IMG/VR virus record: IMGVR_UViG_3300020595_000173
Location: 1 to 25,979 of that record
Length of the DNA: 25,979 bases
Origin: a virus
Direction: 5' to 3' (one strand)
The notes beneath the pieces were generated by a model. The model saw only the letters and a list, made by a program, of their open reading frames with translations. It made no database searches and was not told the origin of the DNA. Made by a program: the position numbers and the translations under genes. Positions within the stretch are counted from its first letter, which is position 1; each line of letters begins with the position of its first letter. Positions 2,813 through 25,761 of the stretch are shown piece after piece.

Positions 2813-4167
2813 TATCTTCTACTTCTTTCACCATTAGCGTATTGATATTGTACTTCATATCTAAATAGCTTTTGGCTACGTGGGTTAGTTTTTTCTGTAA
2901 TACTTGCATTGTTGATTACCACGGGTAAAAACGTTGAACCATCTTGAACATATACGTCCGTGGAAAAGAATAGTTCGCGTAAAATATCCGCGTCTACTTG
3001 CGTTAAATAATCACTATTTGCCGTATGTTGTTTAGTGATACTGTTGTAGTAGTTATTTCTACCTCTACTTGATTTATCATACGCAACACTATTTGTGGTT
3101 GTAGAATAATCTACAAATGCTTCTTTATATTCTTGTCTTTCAACATTTGATGTAGTTGAATCTGCTAATGTGAAGTTAAAGTAATCCCAAACACCATATT
3201 CGTTTTTCCAAGCAAATCTTACTCCTGGGAAATCACAAGCACCAGTATCAATATTAAATGTGTATTCACCCCATACTCCATCAGCATTAACAAATGTATC
3301 AGTAGCTTGGGAGTTAAATGTTAATGTATAATAAGATGTATCTGCTAAAATAGGTACACCTACATCCTCTAAGTTTTGTGGACCAGCTGGATAATGAACT
3401 AAACGTGTAGATTCATCTTGTGAAGTATAAACATCACTCCAAAACTGTGTTTGTGCTGTTCTTAGTCCTGTAAATGTATCGTATAAAATATCTGTATCTA
3501 AAAGTGTACCTGATGAATCGTATTGTCTATAAGTAGCAGCAAATACATCTTGTGCACTATTTGGATTATCACCATTACCTTGTAGATTACCTCTTAAAAT
3601 AGAGATAGTACCATAATCACCTATTTGTACTTTTTGTGTAGTAAAATCTGTTAAACCAAACTGATGATTAAATGTAACATCATCTAATGGGTCTTCTTCA
3701 TTGTATTTTGAACCACTATTCCAGTTCCAATCTATTAAATCATTAGGATTAGCAAATCCATCTAATAAAAAGTTAATCTGTGTAGGAATAGTTACAGCTG
3801 GGTCTCCAACATTAGATGCTACACCAGTATACAATGTAACAGATGATGAAACACTTGTACCATATTCTTCACCAAAGTAAATATTAAAATCACCTCCACT
3901 AAAACTATTTGCTTGTGGGGTAGTTGTTTTCCAAGCTTCATCTGTAGGTCCTAACTGCGAAGGTAAGATTTGCCCTATATCAAATACACCTTTAGATGAT
4001 GGGTTTGGTTGTTGTTTTATTCTTTGGATTAATGTATCACTTTCGTCCTTAATATCTACTACGAACTGAAACTGCGGTTGGGTTACCTCTGTTGAAGTAA
4101 CCTCGTAAACCAAGTTATTGTTCACCATATTGGGACTTGTAGGGTATTGTTGTAATGATGTTGCCAT
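2812..4167 (-). CDS. Tail/baseplate structural protein (451 aa)
   Basis: This is a beta-rich, Thr/Ser/Asn-rich protein with no signal peptide or membrane segment. The C-terminal third carries the pattern RFAWKNEYGVWDYFNF, then RQEYKEAF, then a segment ending in VYVQDGSTFLPVVINNAS and YEVQYQYANGERSRR. I recognise this arrangement from structural proteins that accompany tail completion genes in marine Bacteroidota phages. It sits between an HK97 gp10-like protein and the very large tail protein, with one-base TAATG overlaps on both sides, so the four genes from 5798 downstream form one coupled tail operon. The specific role (baseplate hub, distal tail or adaptor) cannot be settled from sequence alone. 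Confidence 0.8.
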   Translation of the reverse strand: MATSLQQYPTSPNMVNNNLVYEVTSTEVTQPQFQFVVDIKDESDTLIQRIKQQPNPSSKGVFDIGQILPSQLGPTDEAWKTTTPQANSFSGGDFNIYFGEEYGTSVSSSVTLYTGVASNVGDPAVTIPTQINFLLDGFANPNDLIDWNWNSGSKYNEEDPLDDVTFNHQFGLTDFTTQKVQIGDYGTISILRGNLQGNGDNPNSAQDVFAATYRQYDSSGTLLDTDILYDTFTGLRTAQTQFWSDVYTSQDESTRLVHYPAGPQNLEDVGVPILADTSYYTLTFNSQATDTFVNADGVWGEYTFNIDTGACDFPGVRFAWKNEYGVWDYFNFTLADSTTSNVERQEYKEAFVDYSTTTNSVAYDKSSRGRNNYYNSITKQHTANSDYLTQVDADILRELFFSTDVYVQDGSTFLPVVINNASITEKTNPRSQKLFRYEVQYQYANGERSRR

Positions 4168-4514
4168 TATAGTTGTATTGTTAAGTCTACCTCTTTAGGT
4201 AGTGATTTTGCCAAGTCTGCTGATACATCTTCTGCTGCAGCTAATGCTATATCGTTTATTTCTTTTCCTATAACATTTGTTTGTGCACGTTCAATGAACT
4301 TTTGTGCTGTTTGAAACTTAGTACCTAAATCTGGAAATATATAGTAGTTTAGTAATGAAATAGGTGCTTCAATACCTTCAGGTGATTCAGTAGCGGATTG
4401 TGCTTTAACACTACGTTTTAATCTACCAGTATCAACAGGAGATAGCTTACGTATCTCTGCTGCTAACTCTTTATTTACTTTATTTATTTCGTTTTCTAAG
4501 TTATTAAACTCCAT
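4167..4514 (-). CDS. HK97 gp10-like tail completion / head-tail joining protein
   Basis: The 115 residues begin with an amphipathic helix (ENEINKVNKELAAEIRKL) followed by SPVDTGRLKRSVKAQ. The 'PVDTGRLRxS' motif is the hallmark of the HK97 gp10 family, which joins or finishes the tail at the neck. A later 'YYIFPDLGTKFQTAQKFIERA' segment matches the usual 'xxExGTxxxxAxPFlxpA' part of that family. Length is normal. The gene lies between a tail-terminator-like gene and a larger tail protein, the expected place, and both junctions are TAATG overlaps. Confidence 0.8.
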   Translation of the reverse strand: MEFNNLENEINKVNKELAAEIRKLSPVDTGRLKRSVKAQSATESPEGIEAPISLLNYYIFPDLGTKFQTAQKFIERAQTNVIGKEINDIALAAAEDVSADLAKSLPKEVDLTIQL

Positions 4515-4957
4515 TATTGTGGGAAGTTACAATAGTTGTAAACTGCGTCTTCTGTTATTGTTATATTTGCTGCCCAACCAAAAGCCCTATCGTTAAATGC
4601 TTCGTTAACTGGAATAATATTACTTAATGTAAAATCTATACCATAAGGTGTTTGTGCATTATTAAATCGCATATAACCTAAAACATCATAAATGTATAGT
4701 TCTGTATTTGATTTAACTTCTACTGCAGGTGCATTGCTTAGTTTTGGTACATCTAAACTATAAAGTTCAAATGCTAATGTTCTAATATTACCACTTAAAC
4801 CAGGAGAGGTTAATGGGCGTAAGAACATAAATGGGTATTTAATGTTTTGGCTATTTGAATCTAAGTACGACAATGGACCTTCAGCAAATGATTGTATTGC
4901 TAAATGTGCTGTTGTTGCTTCTTCAAAATAACCAACTATGTCTTTATAAGTATTCAT
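4514..4957 (-). CDS. Tail terminator / tail completion-like protein
   Basis: The 147-residue protein starts MNTYKDIVGYFEEATTAHLA. It then has a KYPFMFLRPL strand, a central 'FELYSLDVPKL' strand, and a C-terminal 'NDRAFGWAANITI...YNYCNFP' segment. This is the fold order and motif set of the tail-terminator-like protein found next to gp10 homologues in many Bacteroidota phages. It would cap the tail tube during assembly. The ATG at 4957 overlaps the stop of the -1 reading frame of the upstream chaperone gene as TAATG, the same junction used between the next three genes, which argues that the -1 frame is the functional upstream end. Family assignment is by pattern only. Confidence 0.7.
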   Translation of the reverse strand: MNTYKDIVGYFEEATTAHLAIQSFAEGPLSYLDSNSQNIKYPFMFLRPLTSPGLSGNIRTLAFELYSLDVPKLSNAPAVEVKSNTELYIYDVLGYMRFNNAQTPYGIDFTLSNIIPVNEAFNDRAFGWAANITITEDAVYNYCNFPQ

Positions 4958-5798
4958 TATTTTATTCTATATTGACGTTCTGTCTGTTTTCTAATCTGTT
5001 CATCCCTCTTGTTCTTATCTTGTTCGTAAGCGAGGAAGTTAAATACGAAGACGATATTGCAGTCCAAGATACTTCTTTCTCCATTGATTGATAAGATGGA
5101 TGTTGAAGCCAGGTAATGAAGCGTAGCAAACCATCCCCAGTGTTCACTGTAGCCATCTGTTTGTTCATCTTCTCCACTTCCATCATCTGTTGTTTGGGTG
5201 GGAGAGAAGAGAGATTCGAACTTGCGGAGAAGTAAGCTGCGAGAACTAAAAAAAAACTTAACGCACCTAATCCAATAGAGGCTGGAATGTTAGATAATGT
5301 TTTAGCTTGTGCTTCTCTTTTACTATTATCGTACTTTTCTACTTCATAGTACTTAAATAGATTTTCTGCTTCACCTAATGCTACCTTATATGTTGATTTA
5401 AAAGCCCATTTGATACCGCTAAACTTATTTTTTACAATAGGGCGATATAGTATAGCCATTATTTCCTCGAGGTTTTCATTCGGATTTTTCGCAAGCCTCT
5501 CTAAGTCAATATACTCGCCTGTAGTCATACTTGTAAGCGATTTAAACCCATATTTTACACCATCTAAATCAAATATAGGATAGAACTGCGGTGTTAAATC
5601 TTCAAACGAAGATAATAATGTAGCATACACTTGTTGTAATGCTGTTGGTGTATACTCTTTTACTTCATCAATGTCCTTACCTCCCATTTTAGAGATTAAA
5701 GATACCATTTTCTCGCTTTCATTTAAATGTTCAAGCGAGTTAAAGTATTTCCAATCTGCGATTGAAAGGTATTCTGGTATTTGTATTTGTATCTTCAT
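4957..5798 (-). CDS. Tail assembly chaperone, predicted -1 frameshift fusion (280 aa)
   Basis: A shift of -1 at U UUU UUA (5253-5247) joins the 183 N-terminal residues to 96 residues in the -1 frame, ending at TAA 4959-4957. The -1 extension contains GYSEHWGWFATLHYLAS and FNFLAYEQDKNKRDEQIRKQ, which looks like a folded helical domain and resembles the 'GWxxxLxxLA...LxYLxxxKD' tail of this family. The extension has no ATG or GTG and an in-frame TAA lies 12 codons before the slip run, so it cannot be made except by frameshifting. Its stop overlaps the next gene as TAATG. By analogy with lambda gpG-GT, the fusion would load on the tape measure. A missing or extra T in the run is the alternative explanation. 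Confidence 0.7.
4962..5798 (-). CDS. Tail assembly chaperone, zero-frame product (278 aa)
   Basis: The N-terminal 180 residues (MKIQIQIPEYLSIADWKYF..., VKYGFKSLTSMTTGEYIDLERL, MAILYRPIV) match a widespread Bacteroidota phage protein that fits a tail assembly chaperone (lambda gpG-like). A run of nine T on the coding strand (5256-5248) encodes part of SFFLVL. In frame zero the protein continues 94 more residues, including NTGDGLLRFITWLQ, a segment resembling the usual end of short family members. The last 95 codons overlap an equally long open -1 frame (see the fused product at 4957-5798). Base use in the overlap is less AT-rich than in neighbours, as expected when two frames are constrained. 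Start ATG 5798 follows 113 bases without a gene. Confidence 0.75.
   Translation of the reverse strand: MKIQIQIPEYLSIADWKYFNSLEHLNESEKMVSLISKMGGKDIDEVKEYTPTALQQVYATLLSSFEDLTPQFYPIFDLDGVKYGFKSLTSMTTGEYIDLERLAKNPNENLEEIMAILYRPIVKNKFSGIKWAFKSTYKVALGEAENLFKYYEVEKYDNSKREAQAKTLSNIPASIGLGALSFFLVLAAYFSASSNLSSLPPKQQMMEVEKMNKQMATVNTGDGLLRFITWLQHPSYQSMEKEVSWTAISSSYLTSSLTNKIRTRGMNRLENRQNVNIE
5247..5256 (-). other. Programmed -1 frameshift slippery site (T9, U UUU UUA)
   Basis: The coding strand reads AAG, nine T, then AGT. Zero-frame codons are AGT TTT TTT TTA GTT, giving the X XXY YYZ heptamer U UUU UUA at 5253-5247, the same heptamer used by HIV-1 gag-pol. Tandem slippage leaves both tRNAs fully or nearly paired with UUU UUU. 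I saw no convincing downstream stem-loop or pseudoknot within about 50 bases. Confidence 0.65.
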
Positions 5799-7042: not shown

Positions 7043-8284
7043 TTAATATGCTTTAACACTACCACCAATATATAACTTATTTTTTGCACCTCCAAGCATA
7101 TTATTTCTTGCTTGATTAGCTAACCACAATGAATCAACACAATCGTCTTTAAATCCATTAGGGTGGCTAAATGATAGTTTACCATTAGCACTCGTTTTAT
7201 AAGTATAGGCTGATAGTTCGTTATATAAATGTGGGAATAAATCTTTACTTGGTAACTCTAATATTTGATTTTCAATATCCTGAATCAATGCCCTAACTGC
7301 TGTTAGTTTTGTATCTTGTGTCGTTATGAATGGGCTACACTTAACACCACTTTTCCTGACTTGTTCAAAGATAGCCTTACCGATTCCATTAGTTTCAATA
7401 TTTCCTCCTCTGACATTGTATCGTCTGCAATGATTGATGATAATGTTTCCAGCTTCTTCAAATGATTTCCCATTAAATCTATCAATGAACGCTGTTCGTC
7501 CAGATTCGTCAAGGATTGTAAGCACGGTATAATCATCAGAGAGTCCAATGTCAAGTCCAAAATAATATTTTGTGCTTCTTCTCGGTTGTTCATAGTTATT
7601 TATATTACAAACTAAATCTATTCCCCTAAACACATCATTAGTTGCTTCTGAAAACTGTGCTAAGTATTCTTGTGCAAATATATCTGCAGGAAGTGATTTG
7701 GCTTGTTCGTTAATAAAATCGACATCAATATACGGGTTATCCGTGGAAATACCTGCAAAACTAATGTAGTCACTACCTCCGTCGATGCCCTTAAGGTAAT
7801 ACGTATAAAACCAGTTTTTTGACTTAGGAGTAGATATAATAAGACATTTTTTTCCTAATGCTGATAATGTAGGGAATATTGCCTCGTTAACTGCATCCTC
7901 CTTAATAAATGCTGCTTCGTCAATCACTACATAGTTAAAACTAAAACCCCTGATACTATCATAACGTTCACTACCAAAGAACTGAATAGTAGAACCATTA
8001 ATAAATGTAATAGTTAAATCTGCTTTATTACTTGATTTAATGATTTTATTTGATGCTGCTTCAAGTTCATTAAATACCTTTTTTGCTTGGGTAAAAATGG
8101 GGCTAAAGAAACCTGCTTTTTGATTTGGTTTAGATAATAACCAATACAACATTAGGTTTTGTGCTAATAATGATTTACCAAACTGCCTACCACAAGATAC
8201 TATACCGAACTTATGTTCGCTATCAGCAAAACCATTAATGACTTTCTTTTGCCCTAAGTGTGGTGTGAATAAAGTTACGTTCAT
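7043..8284 (-). CDS. terL: Terminase large subunit
   Basis: This 413-residue protein is the ATPase and nuclease of the packaging motor that fills proheads through the portal. The Walker A motif is GRQFGKS (residues 32-38), Walker B is YVVIDEAAF (about 118-126) and the coupling motif is STPK (151-154). The nuclease domain follows, with acidic residues in FGLDIGLSDD (Asp245), NIETNG (Glu297) and GFKDDCVDSL (Asp380/381/384), the usual RNase H-like triad. Length is normal. ATG 8284 overlaps the upstream stop as ATGA. It is separated from the portal gene by about 10 kb, which is unusual. Hairpins follow its stop. Confidence 0.95.
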   Translation of the reverse strand: MNVTLFTPHLGQKKVINGFADSEHKFGIVSCGRQFGKSLLAQNLMLYWLLSKPNQKAGFFSPIFTQAKKVFNELEAASNKIIKSSNKADLTITFINGSTIQFFGSERYDSIRGFSFNYVVIDEAAFIKEDAVNEAIFPTLSALGKKCLIISTPKSKNWFYTYYLKGIDGGSDYISFAGISTDNPYIDVDFINEQAKSLPADIFAQEYLAQFSEATNDVFRGIDLVCNINNYEQPRRSTKYYFGLDIGLSDDYTVLTILDESGRTAFIDRFNGKSFEEAGNIIINHCRRYNVRGGNIETNGIGKAIFEQVRKSGVKCSPFITTQDTKLTAVRALIQDIENQILELPSKDLFPHLYNELSAYTYKTSANGKLSFSHPNGFKDDCVDSLWLANQARNNMLGGAKNKLYIGGSVKAY

Positions 8285-8928
8285 TTAATCCTCCATTGTT
8301 TATGGCTTTTTGTTCTACCTGTTGACATTTGATAAGCATTACCTAAGTCTAAACCAGGATATGCTTTAACAAGTTGGGTTGCTTTACCATAAAACTCCCC
8401 ATATTCAGGGTGTTCAAACCATTTAGCTTGTTCATTATATTTTGATGGGTGTTTTTTCTGGATGTAGGTTAAACATTCCTCTATATTTTCTCCATCATAC
8501 ATTTCTAATGCTTTATTATAGGCATTTTTAGTAGCACCAAATGCGGCTTTAGGTTTTATGTGTCTAACTTCCTTGATAAGGTATTTAGTTAGTTTTTTAT
8601 AGTAGGTAGTTGACATATGTAAATCAACTTGACCTTCTATTTTATTAATCACATTAGCACTTTGTTTAAGTATTTTTTCTTCCTGTTCTTTACTTATTTG
8701 TGGTGCTGCCTTAATGTCCATACTATCGTAAAATGTTGTATTATACGGCTTTATAACGCGTGTCGGTTCAATCACACCATACTCCGTGCTTAAAATAAAG
8801 TAATCATTATAAACGCGTGAAATAAAATCACGTTGTGCCCTATAAATCCAACTTTTAGAATACATTTCATCAGCTGGACATTCATAGTCTTGTTTTGATG
8901 CTTTACAGCCTAGTATTGCTATCTTCAT
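8281..8928 (-). CDS. DUF6884-like protein A (215 aa)
   Basis: The N-terminal 70 residues (MKIAILGCKASKQDY..., DYFILSTEYGVIEPTRVIKPYN) carry the pattern C-x-x-(S/A)-K, then (Y/F)ILSxxYGxxxPxxVIxPY, which I know from DUF6884 proteins of phages and bacteria. The rest is a longer helical and basic region ending KSHKQWRIK. A paralogue lies at 9340-9804 on the other side of the small-terminase gene. The biochemical function is unknown to me; the conserved Cys, Ser/Lys and Tyr-Gly residues suggest an active site, possibly in base or nucleotide chemistry, but this is inference. It overlaps both neighbours, so it is cotranscribed and coupled with packaging genes. Confidence 0.75.
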   Translation of the reverse strand: MKIAILGCKASKQDYECPADEMYSKSWIYRAQRDFISRVYNDYFILSTEYGVIEPTRVIKPYNTTFYDSMDIKAAPQISKEQEEKILKQSANVINKIEGQVDLHMSTTYYKKLTKYLIKEVRHIKPKAAFGATKNAYNKALEMYDGENIEECLTYIQKKHPSKYNEQAKWFEHPEYGEFYGKATQLVKAYPGLDLGNAYQMSTGRTKSHKQWRIK

Positions 8929-9339: not shown

Positions 9340-9804
9340 TCATTCATATCTTAGCTTATACTTTTGTAGGTTTTTACCCCAAGGTATTTCAAATAGTATT
9401 TTATTATTTCTTGGGTGTGTAAAGTGTTCCTTAACATACTTCCAATAATAATGTCCTACATACCAATCTATCTGTTTATATTCCTCTTGGTTAAGTTGTT
9501 GATTTACCATTTCACCCCATTCTAACCTATCATTTTTAGGCATTACACTTGGTGGTTTTCTACCTTCTTTAATAGCTTTTTTTCTTGCAAAGTGTTGAAC
9601 AAACAACATTTTATCTTCATATGGTTCTATAACTTGATTTGGTGTCATAATACCATAATGTGCTGATAGGATATAATATTTAGGATAATGATATTCTACA
9701 TAGTTTCGCATTGTTCTAAAGAATATCCCATCTTCATACATTAACCTTGATTCTGTAGGATAATCTTTTTTATTTGACCCACAAGTGATTATCGCTATTT
9801 TCAT
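9340..9804 (-). CDS. DUF6884-like protein B (154 aa)
   Basis: The start MKIAIITCGSNKKDYPTESR aligns with protein A (8281-8928), as does YYILSAHYGIMTPNQVIEPYE. The downstream part differs: a basic linker (RKKAIKEGRKPPSVMPKNDR) and the segment IDWYVGHYYWKYVKEHF, which resembles the later conserved part of DUF6884 proteins. Length fits a single domain. The gene follows a 67-residue coiled-coil gene without a gap, and precedes the small terminase. The two paralogues flanking the small terminase suggest a role connected to DNA packaging or DNA modification, but no reaction can be assigned from sequence alone. Confidence 0.75.
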   Translation of the reverse strand: MKIAIITCGSNKKDYPTESRLMYEDGIFFRTMRNYVEYHYPKYYILSAHYGIMTPNQVIEPYEDKMLFVQHFARKKAIKEGRKPPSVMPKNDRLEWGEMVNQQLNQEEYKQIDWYVGHYYWKYVKEHFTHPRNNKILFEIPWGKNLQKYKLRYE

Positions 9805-10189: not shown

Positions 10190-10687
10190 TTATTTTACTT
10201 TATTATTATTTAAGTTTGGATTGATTATCTGAATGTATTTTGTCTCTAACTCGAACATTACTTCCTTATCGCAATATTCTAACACCCTAAAATCGAAGGC
10301 CTCCTTACCAAGTTCTTTTACTAACTTAGATAACTTCTTATTTTTACCATGACCTCGATTACTAAAGTGTTTCCACTTTCTATTTCTTAGGTTAGTAGAA
10401 CAACCTACATAACTATCATTGGTAAGGAGACAATCAACTATATAGACGCCGCATTCGGCAGGGATTTTCTTATTATAATGGTTTCCGGGATATTTTTCAG
10501 GATTTTCTTTATAGTAACGCTTCATATAGGACTGATATGCTAATGGGTCTTGTTCAATGAAAACTCTATTTCGTTTATAGCTACAGTCTTTACAGTATGA
10601 TTTTAATATACCCTTAGGTTTATCTGAATAATGGAACATATCTAATGATAGTTCCTTACCACAATCCTTGCATTCCTTCGTCTCCAT
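10190..10687 (-). CDS. GIY-YIG endonuclease with N-terminal zinc ribbon
   Basis: Residues 6-38 form a zinc ribbon of two CxxC pairs (CKDCGKE... and YCKDCSYKR). A GIY-YIG domain follows at about 80-160: GVYIVDCLLTNDSYVG gives the GVY/YVG core, NLRNRKWKH supplies the catalytic Arg, and ELETKYI the catalytic Glu. Phage proteins of this type are usually homing endonucleases that cut intron- or gene-less alleles. The gene is on the same strand as its neighbours and fits tightly between them, so it is either a freestanding homing enzyme or one recruited for phage DNA metabolism. A similar zinc ribbon opens the protein at 12500-13036. Confidence 0.85.
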   Translation of the reverse strand: METKECKDCGKELSLDMFHYSDKPKGILKSYCKDCSYKRNRVFIEQDPLAYQSYMKRYYKENPEKYPGNHYNKKIPAECGVYIVDCLLTNDSYVGCSTNLRNRKWKHFSNRGHGKNKKLSKLVKELGKEAFDFRVLEYCDKEVMFELETKYIQIINPNLNNNKVK

Positions 10688-11426: not shown

Positions 11427-11520
11427 TTTGTTTTGCTTTTAGTATTGCGGTTTCCCAAATAATATATTCCATTGCATAGTTATCATCAATAAACATCTGC
11501 ATTTTTTCACAATCAGTCAT
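11380..11520 (-). CDS. Tiny acidic hypothetical protein (46 aa)
   Basis: ATG 11520 (MTDCEKMQMFIDDNYAMEYII) to TAG 11382-11380. The sequence is helical, with one Cys and an acidic C-terminus (DISDIDFDIID). The start overlaps the end of the 95-residue gene by eight bases and the 3' end overlaps the membrane protein gene by 47 bases. It fills what would otherwise be an 86-base gap in a packed operon. No family is recognised and the small size leaves doubt. Confidence 0.5.
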   Translation of the reverse strand: MTDCEKMQMFIDDNYAMEYIIWETAILKAKQNGTTDISDIDFDIID

Positions 11521-11800
11521 TCTGTAACTCCTTTAAATATTCTCTAACATCTCTCCTGATGTTGTGTTTTCTATTTTTATCTCTGGTGTATTTAGCTTCT
11601 ACAACATTATTTATTTGTTCTTGTAAATCGTTGATTTGTTCAACTAATATATCCATATTATGGGTGTGGATGTTGTCTGCGGTTTGCTTGTGTTTTTTAG
11701 CGTGTTTAAACGCGTTGTACTTACTCTTCACATACGGCACCGCTAACGTAAAAGTATACGTTAAAACCGCTGTAGTAATAATAGTTAACAGTTGTTGCAT
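11513..11800 (-). CDS. Membrane-anchored coiled-coil protein (95 aa)
   Basis: One N-terminal hydrophobic helix (about residues 3-23, LLTIITTAVLTYTFTLAVPYV) is followed by a basic region and a long coiled coil (about 45-90, MDILVEQINDLQEQINNVVEA). This topology matches inner-membrane spanins (Rz-like) but also many other small phage proteins. No outer-membrane lipoprotein partner is seen next to it, which weakens the spanin idea. It overlaps the upstream HTH gene by 16 bases. Confidence 0.65.
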   Translation of the reverse strand: MQQLLTIITTAVLTYTFTLAVPYVKSKYNAFKHAKKHKQTADNIHTHNMDILVEQINDLQEQINNVVEAKYTRDKNRKHNIRRDVREYLKELQND

Positions 11801-12327
11801 TTTTCTCTTATTTGATTAATAGCTGTGTTCATATCTTTAACAAGGTGTCCCTTGGAAATGTTATAGTACTGGTGTACCTCCTCTAATGATTTACCTTCAT
11901 ACCAATACTTATTCATTATAGCCTGGAGGTACCAATGAAGGTTCTTGTATTCTTGCTGGAAACATTCCATTAGTGAATCATCATATACCTCCTCTGGGCG
12001 GTCAAATATACTATTGAATGAACCTGGTACTCCATCCTCTCTACTCCAACTCTTCTCTTGTCTGTAGATTCTGTAGAAGGGAGAGGTAGAGGAACGAAGT
12101 TGCTGGGAAGCACCTACTAACAACCACCATCCTAACTTATCATCATCCAGCATCTGAATAATCTTGTCTTCAGGCTGGGAGTATAATGTTTCAACCATGT
12201 GAATGGTTAAATCAGAAGCATGTTGTGCCATCTGTCCCTTAGCGATGTTAGTAGCAATCTGGTTATTTAACCACACATATCTCTCTCCTACCCAATCATC
12301 GATTCTATCTTTTGTTTCTTTGGTCAT
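11785..12327 (-). CDS. HTH protein, sigma-factor-like region (180 aa)
   Basis: The C-terminal 50 residues (about 130-176: LHWYLQAIMNKYWYEGKSLEEVHQYYNISKG...AINQIREKC) have the look of a sigma-70 region 4 type helix-turn-helix: a helix, 'GKSLEEVHQYYNIS' as turn and first helix, then a recognition helix. The N-terminal part is helical with no clear motif. Proteins of this layout in Bacteroidota phages are often predicted transcription regulators. It could be the late regulator that switches on the shared promoters, but this is inference. A purine-rich GGGGGAGAAAAG lies upstream of ATG 12327 at about 10 bases, one of few Shine-Dalgarno-like sequences here. Confidence 0.65.
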   Translation of the reverse strand: MTKETKDRIDDWVGERYVWLNNQIATNIAKGQMAQHASDLTIHMVETLYSQPEDKIIQMLDDDKLGWWLLVGASQQLRSSTSPFYRIYRQEKSWSREDGVPGSFNSIFDRPEEVYDDSLMECFQQEYKNLHWYLQAIMNKYWYEGKSLEEVHQYYNISKGHLVKDMNTAINQIREKCNNC

Positions 12328-12369
12328 ATTCTTATCTTTTCTCCCCCATATCCCAGGAAAATGTAAATA

Positions 12370-12558
12370 TTAAAGTGTAAAACTGGGCTTAATATAATGT
12401 TTTATCTGAACCAACAAGCTTCCATCTTTATTAGGTTCCTGAAGTTTAGTACCCTTTGTACGGTTATAACTATGGTAGGATTCTTCAAAAACGCATTCTT
12501 TAGAAAGGAGATTCAACTTGTTTTTTATTCTGTATTTTGTATGTAGTAGGTTTTTCAT
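12370..12558 (-). CDS. Possible small protein overlapping the zinc-ribbon gene (62 aa)
   Basis: ATG 12558 lies inside the 3' end of the zinc-ribbon gene, in its +1 frame, and the frame runs 62 codons to TAA at 12370. The first 20 residues overlap; the last 42 (VFEESYHSYNRTKGTKLQEP, then a basic, hydrophobic end) fill a gap that otherwise has no gene. Composition looks protein-like. It may be a small coupled gene, a chance frame, or the original C-terminus of the zinc-ribbon protein displaced by a frameshift near the A6 run at the overlap. Confidence 0.4.
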   Translation of the reverse strand: MKNLLHTKYRIKNKLNLLSKECVFEESYHSYNRTKGTKLQEPNKDGSLLVQIKHYIKPSFTL

Positions 12559-13036
12559 CCATTACCCATTGATACATTTTCTGAAGTCCATAATATTTAT
12601 TTCCTCCATATGGTCTTTTAACAACTACACACACATCACCTTCAATATACTGGTTAGGATATGTTTTATATTTTCTATAACTACCTTTATGTTTAAACCA
12701 AGCATCTTCCTTATTATTGGGTTCCATATACAGGTTAAGTGATTTATGTTTTATTTTAGTATCATCTCCTCTACCTGGAATCGCTACAGATATATTATTT
12801 TGTTTTTCTAATATACTTATTTTCTTAGATAGTTTACTAATAAGTTCATCTTTTTCTTCAAATCCCTTCTTAGCTACCTTTAACATATCAACAGCTTGTT
12901 TTTGGATTACATCCTCTATTTCACAATCCCAGCACAACTTTCTGGGTATTGTATTTTCAAAGTTCTTGTAATGAAAGTGCTTACGTTCCTTACTTAACCC
13001 ACAACCTCTACATTCATAACTTACTATCTTATTCAT
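12500..13036 (-). CDS. Zinc-ribbon protein with coiled coil (178 aa)
   Basis: The first 40 residues form a four-Cys zinc ribbon (ECRGCGLSKERKHFHY, then KLCWDCEIED) very like the ribbon of the GIY-YIG nuclease at 10190-10687. A coiled coil covers about 42-80 (VAKKGFEEKDELISKLSKKISILEKQ). The C-terminal 80 residues are Lys/Tyr-rich (GSYRKYKTYPNQYIEGD, RPYGGNKYYGLQ) and match nothing I know. It is the first gene after the strong promoter P4, so it may be expressed early. Nucleic-acid binding is likely. No GIY-YIG or HNH catalytic motif is visible, so nuclease activity is not supported. Confidence 0.7.
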   Translation of the reverse strand: MNKIVSYECRGCGLSKERKHFHYKNFENTIPRKLCWDCEIEDVIQKQAVDMLKVAKKGFEEKDELISKLSKKISILEKQNNISVAIPGRGDDTKIKHKSLNLYMEPNNKEDAWFKHKGSYRKYKTYPNQYIEGDVCVVVKRPYGGNKYYGLQKMYQWVMDEKPTTYKIQNKKQVESPF

Positions 13037-13068
13037 AACATTTTATTTAGTTAAACTTCCTGATGCCC

Positions 13069-13099
13069 TAATAATACAAAATAGAGGTGTGGGAGGCAA
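13069..13099 (-). promoter_or_regulatory. Promoter P4, TTG-N20-TATTATTA
   Basis: TTG (13099-13097), exactly 20 bases, then TATTATTA (13076-13069) on the minus strand, with TTTTG directly before the -7 element. It lies 33 bases upstream of ATG 13036 and just after the terminator at 13133-13157, so it probably starts the operon running through the terminase genes. Confidence 0.65.
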
Positions 13100-13375
13100 G
13101 TTTAAGTATGTATTTTACAAAAGAAAAGAAAAGACGTTGCGATTTCCCCACAACGTCCAATCTCTAACAAAAAAAATAAAATATAGTTTATGATAAAAAC
13201 CTAATCAGTGAACAGTTAATACAACCGATTAATAAACTTTTAACATGACATGAATGTAAGAATGGGCTTTCGCCCATCCTACTTACTTTCCCAAGTTTCT
13301 AAAATCTAAATGTTCTTACTCTCTAAAGTTTTCCACGGGGAAAGATATTTCCTAAGGTAGCACCCTAAGGGAATA
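13100..13375 (-). terminator. Intergenic region with terminator after the adhesin operon
   Basis: No gene is seen in 13037-13375. The best terminator is GACGTTG-11-base loop-CAACGTC (13157-13133 on the minus strand) followed by TTTTCTTTTCTTTT. A second hairpin, ATGGGC-GAAA-GCCCAT (13277-13262), has a stable GNRA tetraloop on the minus strand but no T run. Next to the 13376 stop there is a direct repeat of CCTAAGG (13351-13357 and 13364-13370) inside an imperfect inverted repeat. The rest is AT-rich with no further structure that I can see. Confidence 0.65.
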
Positions 13376-22839: not shown

Positions 22840-23214
22840 ATGAAGCAGTTTAGAGATACACCATATTATATTACAGAAGAGGGTAAAGTGTTTAGATACT
22901 ATCCTGAACGTAAACATATTTACAATAAAGGTTATATAACCAAACCTGAAAAGTATAAAGAACTAAAACCAGGTACCCAATCAATGGGATATAAACAAGT
23001 TGTATTACACGAAGGATTCTCTAAACCTACATCTTGTAGAGTTCATAGATTAGTTGCTGAACTATATGTTCCTGGATATTTTGAAGGTGCACACGTAGAC
23101 CATATTGATTGTAATAAATCAAATAATCATCCTAATAATCTACAATGGTGTACTAAAGAATATAATAATAAAAAAGGTAATAATCCTAACTATCCTTTAT
23201 TCGTCCAGATTTGA
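22840..23214 (+). CDS. HNH homing endonuclease (NUMOD4-HNH)
   Basis: The 124-residue protein has an N-terminal NUMOD4-like segment (MKQFRDTPYYITEEGKVFRYY), then the HNH core: VHRLVAELYVPG (68-79), VDHIDCNKSNNHPNNLQW (86-103) and the EYNN end (107-110). Catalytic His residues lie at 69 and 88 and the Asn at 99-100. It is the only plus-strand gene, placed between the protease and scaffold genes with its own promoter P5, which fits a mobile freestanding homing enzyme. Its 3' end overlaps the 44-residue minus-strand gene by 25 bases, so the last residues are antisense-coded with that gene. Confidence 0.85.
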   Translation: MKQFRDTPYYITEEGKVFRYYPERKHIYNKGYITKPEKYKELKPGTQSMGYKQVVLHEGFSKPTSCRVHRLVAELYVPGYFEGAHVDHIDCNKSNNHPNNLQWCTKEYNNKKGNNPNYPLFVQI

Positions 23215-23325: not shown

Positions 23326-24354
23326 TTATTTTACTTTTGATAACATCATTTCAGCGAATAGACCTTCAACACTTAGCCCTAATACTTTACCTGATTTAAT
23401 GTAGTTATTCCAAATATCTTTATTATCGATTTTGTATTTAGCAAACCAAGTTCCATCTGGTAAGTTGTAACCATAGTTTTTAGACTTATCATTGTCACTT
23501 TCTTTAGTCCAAGTTTCAACCATAAAAATATCATCAACTAAGTTACCATCGTGTTCAATATTTACTCTATGGATAACTTCATCTTTCATTGCTTTATGGG
23601 CAAGTTTTTCAATAGTTTCCTTTGTAAAGTAAACATAATATTCACCATCAGCATCTCTACGTTTGATTAACTTGTTAGGTATCATTAATGGAGAGATAAC
23701 TACTTGTTGTTCGTCCATAGCAGCAAATGATTCTTCAACTTCTTTTAGTTTAGACATTTCCTGCTTGATAAGTTCTTCAGTAATAGCTGCTTCAAAGTTC
23801 TGAATAGGAACGCAGTTAGGTACTTTTCTACCATTCTTAGTTTTTAGTCCTATTGCTTTATAGCCTGGCTGGCAAGCATCATCTAAATCGTTGTATTCTT
23901 CCTTTACAAACTCTTCACCTGCTTGTCTTAGTTTCTTTTCTGCCCAACTAAGTGCACTTGGACCTCCCCAAAGTAAATAGCTAATATAACCACAAGCATC
24001 GTAGTTTTTTCTATCACGTTGTAGTTCATAGTTGTCACGTTGTCTTATTAGGAAACTACGCATTCTTCGTACGGTATCAAGCGATATCGCTTCGCGGTTG
24101 GCAAGCTGTTGGGCCCTAACTTTACCTACGCGAGTAGCGCATTTATTTCCTGTTGCTTCATTTCTTTTGATTCCTTGTTTAGCTGCATTAACTGCTGCTT
24201 CTGGGTAATCAGTAAATGTTTCAGCAAATGATTCTGCATTTGGTTTAGCGAAGTATAGGAAATCTTCTTCTATTGCTGGTTGTTCTACTAATGCGACAGC
24301 ATCTATACCTGCTAATACGCTATTTTCATCTATGTCTAACTTTACAATCTTCAT
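23326..24354 (-). CDS. XkdF-like prohead protease with extra domains (342 aa)
   Basis: The N-terminus (MKIVKLDIDENSVLAGIDAVALVEQPAIEEDF) matches the start of Bacteroidota phage head proteases. Residues 66-148 hold a module with KCATRVGKVRAQQLANREAIS and ACGYISYLLWGGPSALSWAE, and 160-184 a second one (CQPGYKAIGLKTKNGRKVPN). The XkdF serine protease domain spans about 220-335: SPLMIPNKLIKR, FTKETIEKLAHKAM, VNIEHDGN, VETWTKESD, GTWFAKYKID, and VLGLSVEGLF. His268 and Ser328 are candidate catalytic residues. It should cleave scaffold and capsid proteins during maturation. Confidence 0.85.
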   Translation of the reverse strand: MKIVKLDIDENSVLAGIDAVALVEQPAIEEDFLYFAKPNAESFAETFTDYPEAAVNAAKQGIKRNEATGNKCATRVGKVRAQQLANREAISLDTVRRMRSFLIRQRDNYELQRDRKNYDACGYISYLLWGGPSALSWAEKKLRQAGEEFVKEEYNDLDDACQPGYKAIGLKTKNGRKVPNCVPIQNFEAAITEELIKQEMSKLKEVEESFAAMDEQQVVISPLMIPNKLIKRRDADGEYYVYFTKETIEKLAHKAMKDEVIHRVNIEHDGNLVDDIFMVETWTKESDNDKSKNYGYNLPDGTWFAKYKIDNKDIWNNYIKSGKVLGLSVEGLFAEMMLSKVK

Positions 24355-24366
24355 ACTAATAAATAT

Positions 24367-25761
24367 TTATGGGAACTGTCTTCTCGTTTGTAATAATGTT
24401 TCTGCTTCTAAACCATTTGATACATCACCTGCTAAAACATAAGCCCTTACAGGTTGTGATTGTGATAATGTAGGTGTTAATGTACCTGTTGCACCTCCTA
24501 TTGTTGTTGTTCCTATACCAAATGAAGTATTAGGAATACCTCCTCCTCTTGGAGTATTAGGGGCTGCTGTATCACCTGGTTCTGTACTGTTAATCTGTCT
24601 TAAAGAAGCTGCTGTTGTAGCTGCTAACAAAGCAAACTGCGTAGCCTGATAAGCAATAGCAAATGGACCTGTTGTTTGCGAGTTTTTAATAATACCAACA
24701 CCTGCTTGTGCTGCATCAATAAGTACGTTAGCTGATGCTATAGCTTTATTTTCTCCGAATAATGCACCTAATGCACCTTGTAGATTATCAATACCATCTG
24801 TAAGTAATAGTTCTTTATACTCTTGTTCGGCTTGATTTATTGCCCGTATCTTATCACTTTTAGCTTTTTCTATTTGAACCTCTGTAGCAGCTTGGGCTGT
24901 TTTAGCATCAATAAGTTTTAAACCACTATCAGCAAGTTCAGTATCTAATGTTATTTCCTTTTTCTTAAGGTCAAGTTTTTCTTCTTGGAACGTTTTATAC
25001 TTATTATCTTGTTCAAGTTGTTTTTGTGCTGTTTCATCTGCAATAATACCTGCCTGGATAACTTGATTTAATACATCTTTTGCTTGTTCTAAAGCTATTT
25101 TTCTTGCTTCAACACCTTCTTCATTTACTTTTAAGGCATTTTGTTCACGTGCTAATCTATCCTCTGCAAGCTTAATATCTGCTTCTGCTTGTTGTCTGGC
25201 TATTACAAGTTGTTCTTCTAATGTTCTATTATAAGCATCAGCTGTTGCTTGAATATTTTTTAATCTTGCTTCACCACCAGTAATAGCACGTTCAGTATTC
25301 TTGATTAACTCGAGTTGTTCAGTATATAACTCGTTTGTTGTTTTTATTTCTTCTTGGTTATTCTGTTGTCTTTTTCTTAGTATAAGAAATGCTGCAGATA
25401 AAGCAGCTACTGCTGTAACTACTAAACCAATAGGATTTGCCCTTAATACTGCATTATATATTCTCTGTGCTTTAGCTAATAAATCAGTCTCTGTAGCTAA
25501 TACTCTAAATCCTTCAAGTGCACGTTTAGAACCTTCTGCTAACGCAATAGCACCAACTGCTGCTGTCTGGAAACGTTCAGCTTGTTCCTCTGTAACAGCA
25601 CCTGTAATAGCTAATCCCCCAGCAAGTGTAGCAATACTACCACCCACTAAGTTAATAGCACCATCAAGGGTTTTAATGTTATTTTCTAACCTATTTACCT
25701 GCTGTTCCGCATCCTGCGTATTCGCATTTATGTCAATATTGACTGTTTGTGTTGTTGCCAT
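24367..25761 (-). CDS. Tape-measure-like tail protein (464 aa)
   Basis: The start MATTQTVNIDINANTQDAEQQVNRLENNIKTLDGA is the usual opening of tape measure proteins. A hydrophobic region follows (GGSIATLAGGLAI, ANPIGLVVTAVAALSAAFLIL, about 110-130), then a long coiled-coil section (about 140-330) and a Gly/Ala-rich end closing AYVLAGDVSNGLEAETLLQ. At 464 residues it is short for a siphovirus or myovirus tape measure, implying a short tail by the rule of about 1.5 angstrom per residue. It could instead be an internal virion protein. It starts three bases after the tail protein stop at 25765. Confidence 0.75.
   Translation of the reverse strand: MATTQTVNIDINANTQDAEQQVNRLENNIKTLDGAINLVGGSIATLAGGLAITGAVTEEQAERFQTAAVGAIALAEGSKRALEGFRVLATETDLLAKAQRIYNAVLRANPIGLVVTAVAALSAAFLILRKRQQNNQEEIKTTNELYTEQLELIKNTERAITGGEARLKNIQATADAYNRTLEEQLVIARQQAEADIKLAEDRLAREQNALKVNEEGVEARKIALEQAKDVLNQVIQAGIIADETAQKQLEQDNKYKTFQEEKLDLKKKEITLDTELADSGLKLIDAKTAQAATEVQIEKAKSDKIRAINQAEQEYKELLLTDGIDNLQGALGALFGENKAIASANVLIDAAQAGVGIIKNSQTTGPFAIAYQATQFALLAATTAASLRQINSTEPGDTAAPNTPRGGGIPNTSFGIGTTTIGGATGTLTPTLSQSQPVRAYVLAGDVSNGLEAETLLQTRRQFP

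Follow-up and report, generated by a model that had tools for sequence, protein, structure and literature searches.

We asked whether one structural gene of an uncultivated virus makes two proteins by a programmed −1 frameshift and, if so, whether the DNA after the shift is coding in both frames. The gene lies in the IMG/VR virus record IMGVR_UViG_3300020595_000173; the window, meaning the whole stretch of DNA analysed, is 25 979 bases long and carries its structural genes on the minus strand. A sequence-only reading had proposed here a tail assembly chaperone pair with about 285 bases of dual coding. The explanation that we hold with good confidence, on comparative sequence grounds, is a −1 shift by the ribosome that would yield two products with a common 183-aa domain; a role in tail assembly is our best guess.

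Layout of the locus

A shared reading frame runs on the minus strand from 5798 down to nine T's at 5248–5256. Across this run the zero frame reads AGT TTT TTT TTA, which puts both U UUU UUU and U UUU UUA in register; the second heptamer had been recognised correctly in the sequence-only reading. The −1 frame is open for 96 codons (5247–4960), has no Met codon and has an in-frame stop upstream, again as described before. It ends in a TAA (4959–4957) that overlaps by one base the ATG at 4957 with which the next gene starts. The same kind of stop/start junction had been noted at 4514, 4167 and 2812; it is visible at the first two and implied by ORF coordinates at the third. After TTT TTT the zero frame continues for 95 further codons to a stop at 4962. 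Coordinates and supporting evidence are given in Table 1.

Table 1. Features of the frameshift gene and selected neighbours, in window coordinates
Feature	Coordinates	Strand	Evidence
Shared N-terminal domain, 183 aa, common to both products	5250..5798	−	Alignment with 22 diverse homologues; predicted fold mostly at pLDDT about 90
T9 slippery run, zero frame T TTT TTT TTA	5248..5256	−	Sequence; invariant in 64 distinct homologues; T9 in 180/191 distinct loci
Dual-coded stretch: −1 codons 1–34, zero-frame residues 185 to about 218	5146..5247	−	Four-fold divergence 0.057 (−1) and 0.134 (zero frame) versus 0.318 in the N domain
Overlap with both frames open, constraint mainly on the −1 frame	5059..5145	−	−1 four-fold divergence 0.22–0.29 per bin, near background
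Zero-frame extension past the usual family stop, probably incidental	4962..5058	−	Most relatives stop ~63 codons after the slip, the window after 95; model disordered from residue 216
−1 C-terminal extension, 96 aa plus TAA: acidic linker and WGW domain	4957..5247	−	Conserved family
Next gene, 147 aa, ATG overlapping the −1 stop	4514..4957	−	Relatives conserved in synteny
HK97 gp10-like neck or tail completion gene	4167..4514	−	Pfam PF04883, phrog_5
Terminase large subunit, upstream	7043..8284	−	Pfam PF03237, PF17289
Short tape-measure candidate, same tail module	24367..25761	−	phrog_3336, E = 6.8e-6; follows the long tail gene in relatives

Conservation of the slippery run and the −1 domain

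The T run was never used as a query: homologues were sought with the N-terminal domain or with the −1 domain. An initial aligned search supplied 80 viral-contig loci, a −1-domain search the best 80 of 184 relatives, and further searches the best 80 of 262, then 78 loci, and three from bacterial genome contigs; removal of duplicates left 191 distinct loci readable across the slip site. The run is T9 in 180 of these, T10 in seven and T7 in three (L161 and L212/L216), with no T8 anywhere; the one locus lacking a run (L155) has a G GGU UUU heptamer in its place (2470–2500) and keeps the same −1 domain. All 64 distinct homologues compared have T at each of the nine positions. Among the T9 loci the run falls in three codon registers, and every locus with a run has a slippery heptamer in register (U UUU UUU in the relatives). 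A chance T9 in the window is not improbable (2.2 are expected in shuffles), so that the run is notable because of its conservation across loci, not by itself.

Where a locus is long enough, the −1 frame can be followed for ~80–102 codons, mostly 91–102 in the window's clade and mostly 80–87 in a distant clade; the zero frame of the window's clade continues for about 49–102 codons past the slip. The −1 extension forms a conserved domain family with the motif WGW...TGD..DLNF..LNYL, and a 23-member alignment shows F14, G38, W39, L46, L52, G56 and N64 of the window's −1 extension to be invariant. Modelled alone, this domain gave a poor model (pLDDT 62.6), and a fold search with that model gave no useful match; tblastn searches of cultured phages with the fused protein and with two further members gave no matches. 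Comparison of both frames with homologues had been suggested as a check, and it finds the −1 family and the slippery run conserved and both frames open, which strongly supports the programmed −1 frameshift claimed from the single sequence.

Selection on the overlap

When the −1 codons were resampled, the zero frame came out as open as observed with a mean probability of 0.026 per sequence, and the openness seen in the window was reached in none of 500 resamplings. In nearly all pairs more than 50% identical, the zero-frame amino acid sequences were more similar than under a null with matched synonymous divergence. The main test used four-fold degenerate −1-frame sites with conserved first two bases in 28 disjoint pairs; four-fold sites were relied upon because a misaligned linker could flatten the codon-position test. 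Divergence at these sites was 0.057 over the first 38 alignment columns (34 codons, window 5247–5146) and 0.252 in the remaining overlap, compared with 0.403 in sequence open in the −1 frame alone and 0.318 in the shared N domain. Fisher p for the first value is 1.5e-19 against 0.318 and 4.6e-16 against 0.403, both only indicative since the pairs, although disjoint, carry no full phylogenetic correction. Finer bins place a sharp step at column 38, past which constraint is seen on the −1 frame, with little or none on the zero frame. In the reciprocal test, zero-frame four-fold sites gave 0.134 over 5247–5146, versus 0.318. Four-fold divergence is thus depressed in both frames over this stretch, which shows purifying selection on both over about 102 bases. 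Of the ~285 dual-coding bases first claimed, these 102 stand, and beyond 5146 the synonymous-site check shows no clear depression in both frames, the −1 constraint being near background.

At about 0.2 per site, overall divergence within the dual-coded stretch equals that found elsewhere. In the distant clade, whose zero-frame ending is shorter, the constraint is replicated but reaches correspondingly less far, to about codon 24. The control was the terminase of the same phages, where four-fold divergence is flat (0.27–0.45 in every bin). An 89-codon alternative-frame ORF within it (window 7324–7593, minus strand; open in 40 of 73 relatives) had seemed conserved in three loci but showed no constraint in the four-fold test, and it came to serve as the control; that ORF was rejected as coding and looks like a by-product.

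The zero-frame ending

In the predicted structure of the zero-frame product, the N domain is mostly confident, a hydrophobic helix (residues 173–196) crosses the slip site, a second helix extends to 217 at lower confidence, and the chain is disordered from 216 on. The end of the zero-frame constraint agrees with this predicted end of the helix. Most relatives have their zero-frame stop near 5058 (residue ~246), about 63 codons after the slip. In the window phage that stop is lost, Cys-Asn standing in the −1 frame where relatives have Leu-Asn, and the last ~97 zero-frame bases are for this reason probably incidental. The long zero-frame continuation pointed out earlier is indeed open for 95 codons, but those last ~97 bases exist only through stop loss here and in a few relatives. 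Three other loci (L093, L017 and L095) have likewise lost the usual stop and read ~94–102 codons past the slip. The position of the stop was rejected as evidence of selection, since the conserved Leu-Asn in the −1 frame would tend to make a zero-frame TAA or TGA by itself and so largely dictate the stop near residue 246.

Mechanism and alternatives

From the sequence comparisons, the most likely mechanism is a −1 shift of ribosomes at U UUU UUU/UUA, by which a gene of the tail module would yield a G/GT-like protein pair; slippage on the ribosome, its frequency and the chaperone role are what we infer. Zero-frame translation would add a helical ending of about 35 ordered residues, starting at the slip. 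A fraction of the ribosomes would slip back one base on U UUU UUU / U UUU UUA, add the linker and the conserved WGW domain, and terminate on the start codon of the next gene. Stimulatory structures downstream of the slip are common in programmed −1 frameshifting, but are not universal. Here 75 nt downstream of the slip, folded without pseudoknots in 32 sequences, showed no stable RNA structure (mean z +0.63), and neither the Rfam scan nor the tRNA scan of the window gave a hit.

Two simpler accounts of the locus can be set against this. Homopolymers are error-prone, and an error of sequencing or assembly in the T run could have split one gene, a worry already raised over the count of T's. Homologous contigs show the same run, which occurs in many independent contigs, a cultured phage and a bacterial genome bin, and both frames are under selection; conservation of the run rules the error out for the family, and we give it practically no credence. 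The other account holds that only the −1 frame matters, the zero-frame continuation being accidental and the low synonymous divergence reflecting an RNA element that stimulates frameshifting. The constrained stretch does lie directly 3′ of the slip, where stimulators sit, but the absence of detected downstream structure argues against such an element, as does the difference between the two kinds of site: −1 four-fold sites, which are zero-frame second positions, are the more frozen, zero-frame four-fold sites the less so. Moreover, the zero frame is open in every locus despite the low chance of this, and the constrained stretch ends with the predicted zero-frame helix and covers less sequence in the clade whose ending is shorter. 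We therefore consider this account very unlikely.

RNA polymerase slippage on T9 is the more serious contender, although still rather unlikely: mRNAs with one extra U would be translated in the ordinary way into the −1 frame, alone or with ribosomal slippage as well. A run of nine A or T is a site of efficient slippage for bacterial RNA polymerase (review PMC5009743). The run length is nearly fixed at nine in three codon registers, with no T8, and the +1 frame is shut within 14 codons in all readable loci; mRNAs one U shorter would give a truncated protein of ~184–195 aa because that frame closes so soon after the run. The missing downstream structure also fits slippage by the polymerase, and a run of exactly nine exceeds what a heptamer needs. 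A homopolymer of nine or more (T9 or T10) is found in 187 of the 191 loci. Against polymerase slippage, the four without it, T7 or G GGU UUU, keep both frames open; a slippery heptamer is, in addition, in register wherever a run exists. Ribosomal slippage is favoured because these loci, three lineages (L161, L212/L216 and L155) without a run long enough for polymerase slippage, retain the same arrangement. The near-fixed run of nine keeps the polymerase alive as a contributor, and both mechanisms may act. A more elaborate proposal, which we think quite improbable, makes T9 a signal at two levels: overlapping ribosomal heptamers and polymerase slippage would together set the ratios of three products (helix, WGW and ~184-aa truncated), and the zero-frame ending would have evolved, within the −1 linker, into a second functional C terminus.

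Function and gene neighbourhood

Related contigs share a gene order of terminase, frameshift gene, 147-aa gene, gp10-like gene, ~451-aa gene, long tail gene, short tape-measure candidate, S78 protease, scaffold and major capsid. The frameshift gene thus sits between terminase and neck genes, with the tape-measure candidate several genes downstream, and not between a major tail protein and a tape measure, the location expected of a G/GT pair. Searches of Pfam, NCBIfam and annotated PHROG gave no chaperone family match for it, and a fold search gave no significant match to a known tail assembly chaperone; a weak match was to a protein named tail assembly chaperone (E = 0.22). Flavobacterium phage 6H carries a fold relative in which no clear −1 frame was seen.

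A G/GT-like role in tail assembly is our best guess because the gene has the architecture of lambda G/GT and opens the tail module. By that architecture it plausibly works like a G/GT pair and may belong to that class. The chaperone assignment made from the sequence is in this sense plausible from neighbourhood and −1 architecture, while family and significant fold matches are lacking and the gene adjoins terminase and neck genes. The products could instead be another structural or membrane-associated pair, an alternative that we rate as unlikely but the strongest of those considered; the adjoining genes, the missing chaperone family match and the hydrophobic helix spanning the slip speak for it. 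The opening position in the tail module and the weak fold match speak for tail assembly chaperones, as does the wide occurrence in long-tailed phages of low-level −1 shifting for the G/GT pair, despite little sequence similarity (PMC5009743).

Some other features of the window were noted. By eye, an opposite-strand gene between scaffold and protease (22840–23214, plus strand) resembles an HNH homing endonuclease, and a gene at 10190–10687 (minus strand), with a zinc-finger-like start and a GIY-YIG-like stretch, is possibly another homing endonuclease. Upstream of the terminase, 8281–8928 and 9340–9804 (both minus strand) lie close to each other and encode similar proteins, by eye, both starting MKIAI, possibly paralogues. 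The S78-type protease (window 23326–24354, and G007 11439–13277) has extra N-terminal regions; its homologue in one relative is 612 aa long, with weak similarity to a 215-aa protein of the window.

Known systems and cultured relatives

The gene resembles lambda G/GT in having a −1 shift where a shared domain ends, in the tail gene region (PMC5009743), and in a longer product with a second domain; a pair of one rare and one common product is expected here also. It differs in its slippery site (T7–T10 instead of the lambda heptamer), in the about 102 bases selected in both frames and in adjoining the terminase, and no sequence relationship with lambda G/GT was detected. In the frameshift genes of the SEA-PHAGES set the zero-frame stop follows the slip by 26 nt on average (PMC10885494), far less than the about 49–102 zero-frame codons that follow it in the window's clade. 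Transcriptional slippage of the Thermus thermophilus dnaX type likewise has a run of nine A or T in coding sequence and quick closure of another frame (PMC5009743), but the present family has ribosomal heptamers in register, and in some relatives the run is too short for slippage.

Cultured members of the family are Nonlabens phages P12024S (gp38/gp39) and P12024L (gp40/gp41) of Inhavirus, whose genes belong to phrog_32199, of unknown function. These phages, in the distant clade, have a homologous N domain and T9, and the WGW motif occurs in their −1 frame; their T9 is in another codon register and their zero-frame ending is shorter, about 23–25 codons. The shift is unannotated in both, the −1 part being annotated as a separate hypothetical gene. 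Because gp39 of P12024S starts inside the −1 frame after the T9 run of gp38 (L164 11137–11831), gp38 and gp39 are probably one frameshifted gene.

Implications

Tailed phages are known to make protein pairs by frame switching, and the present arrangement is an unusually overlapped version of that trick: alternative C termini are both selected over the same ~100 bases, where the zero frame would usually stop promptly. A large and uncharacterised family of phages, with known hosts that point mainly to Flavobacteriia, is thereby added to the users of frame switching in structural genes, the existing annotation of its cultured members having missed the shift. The natural exceptions to the near-fixed T9, presumably usable by ribosomes alone, offer a route to separating ribosomal from polymerase slippage.
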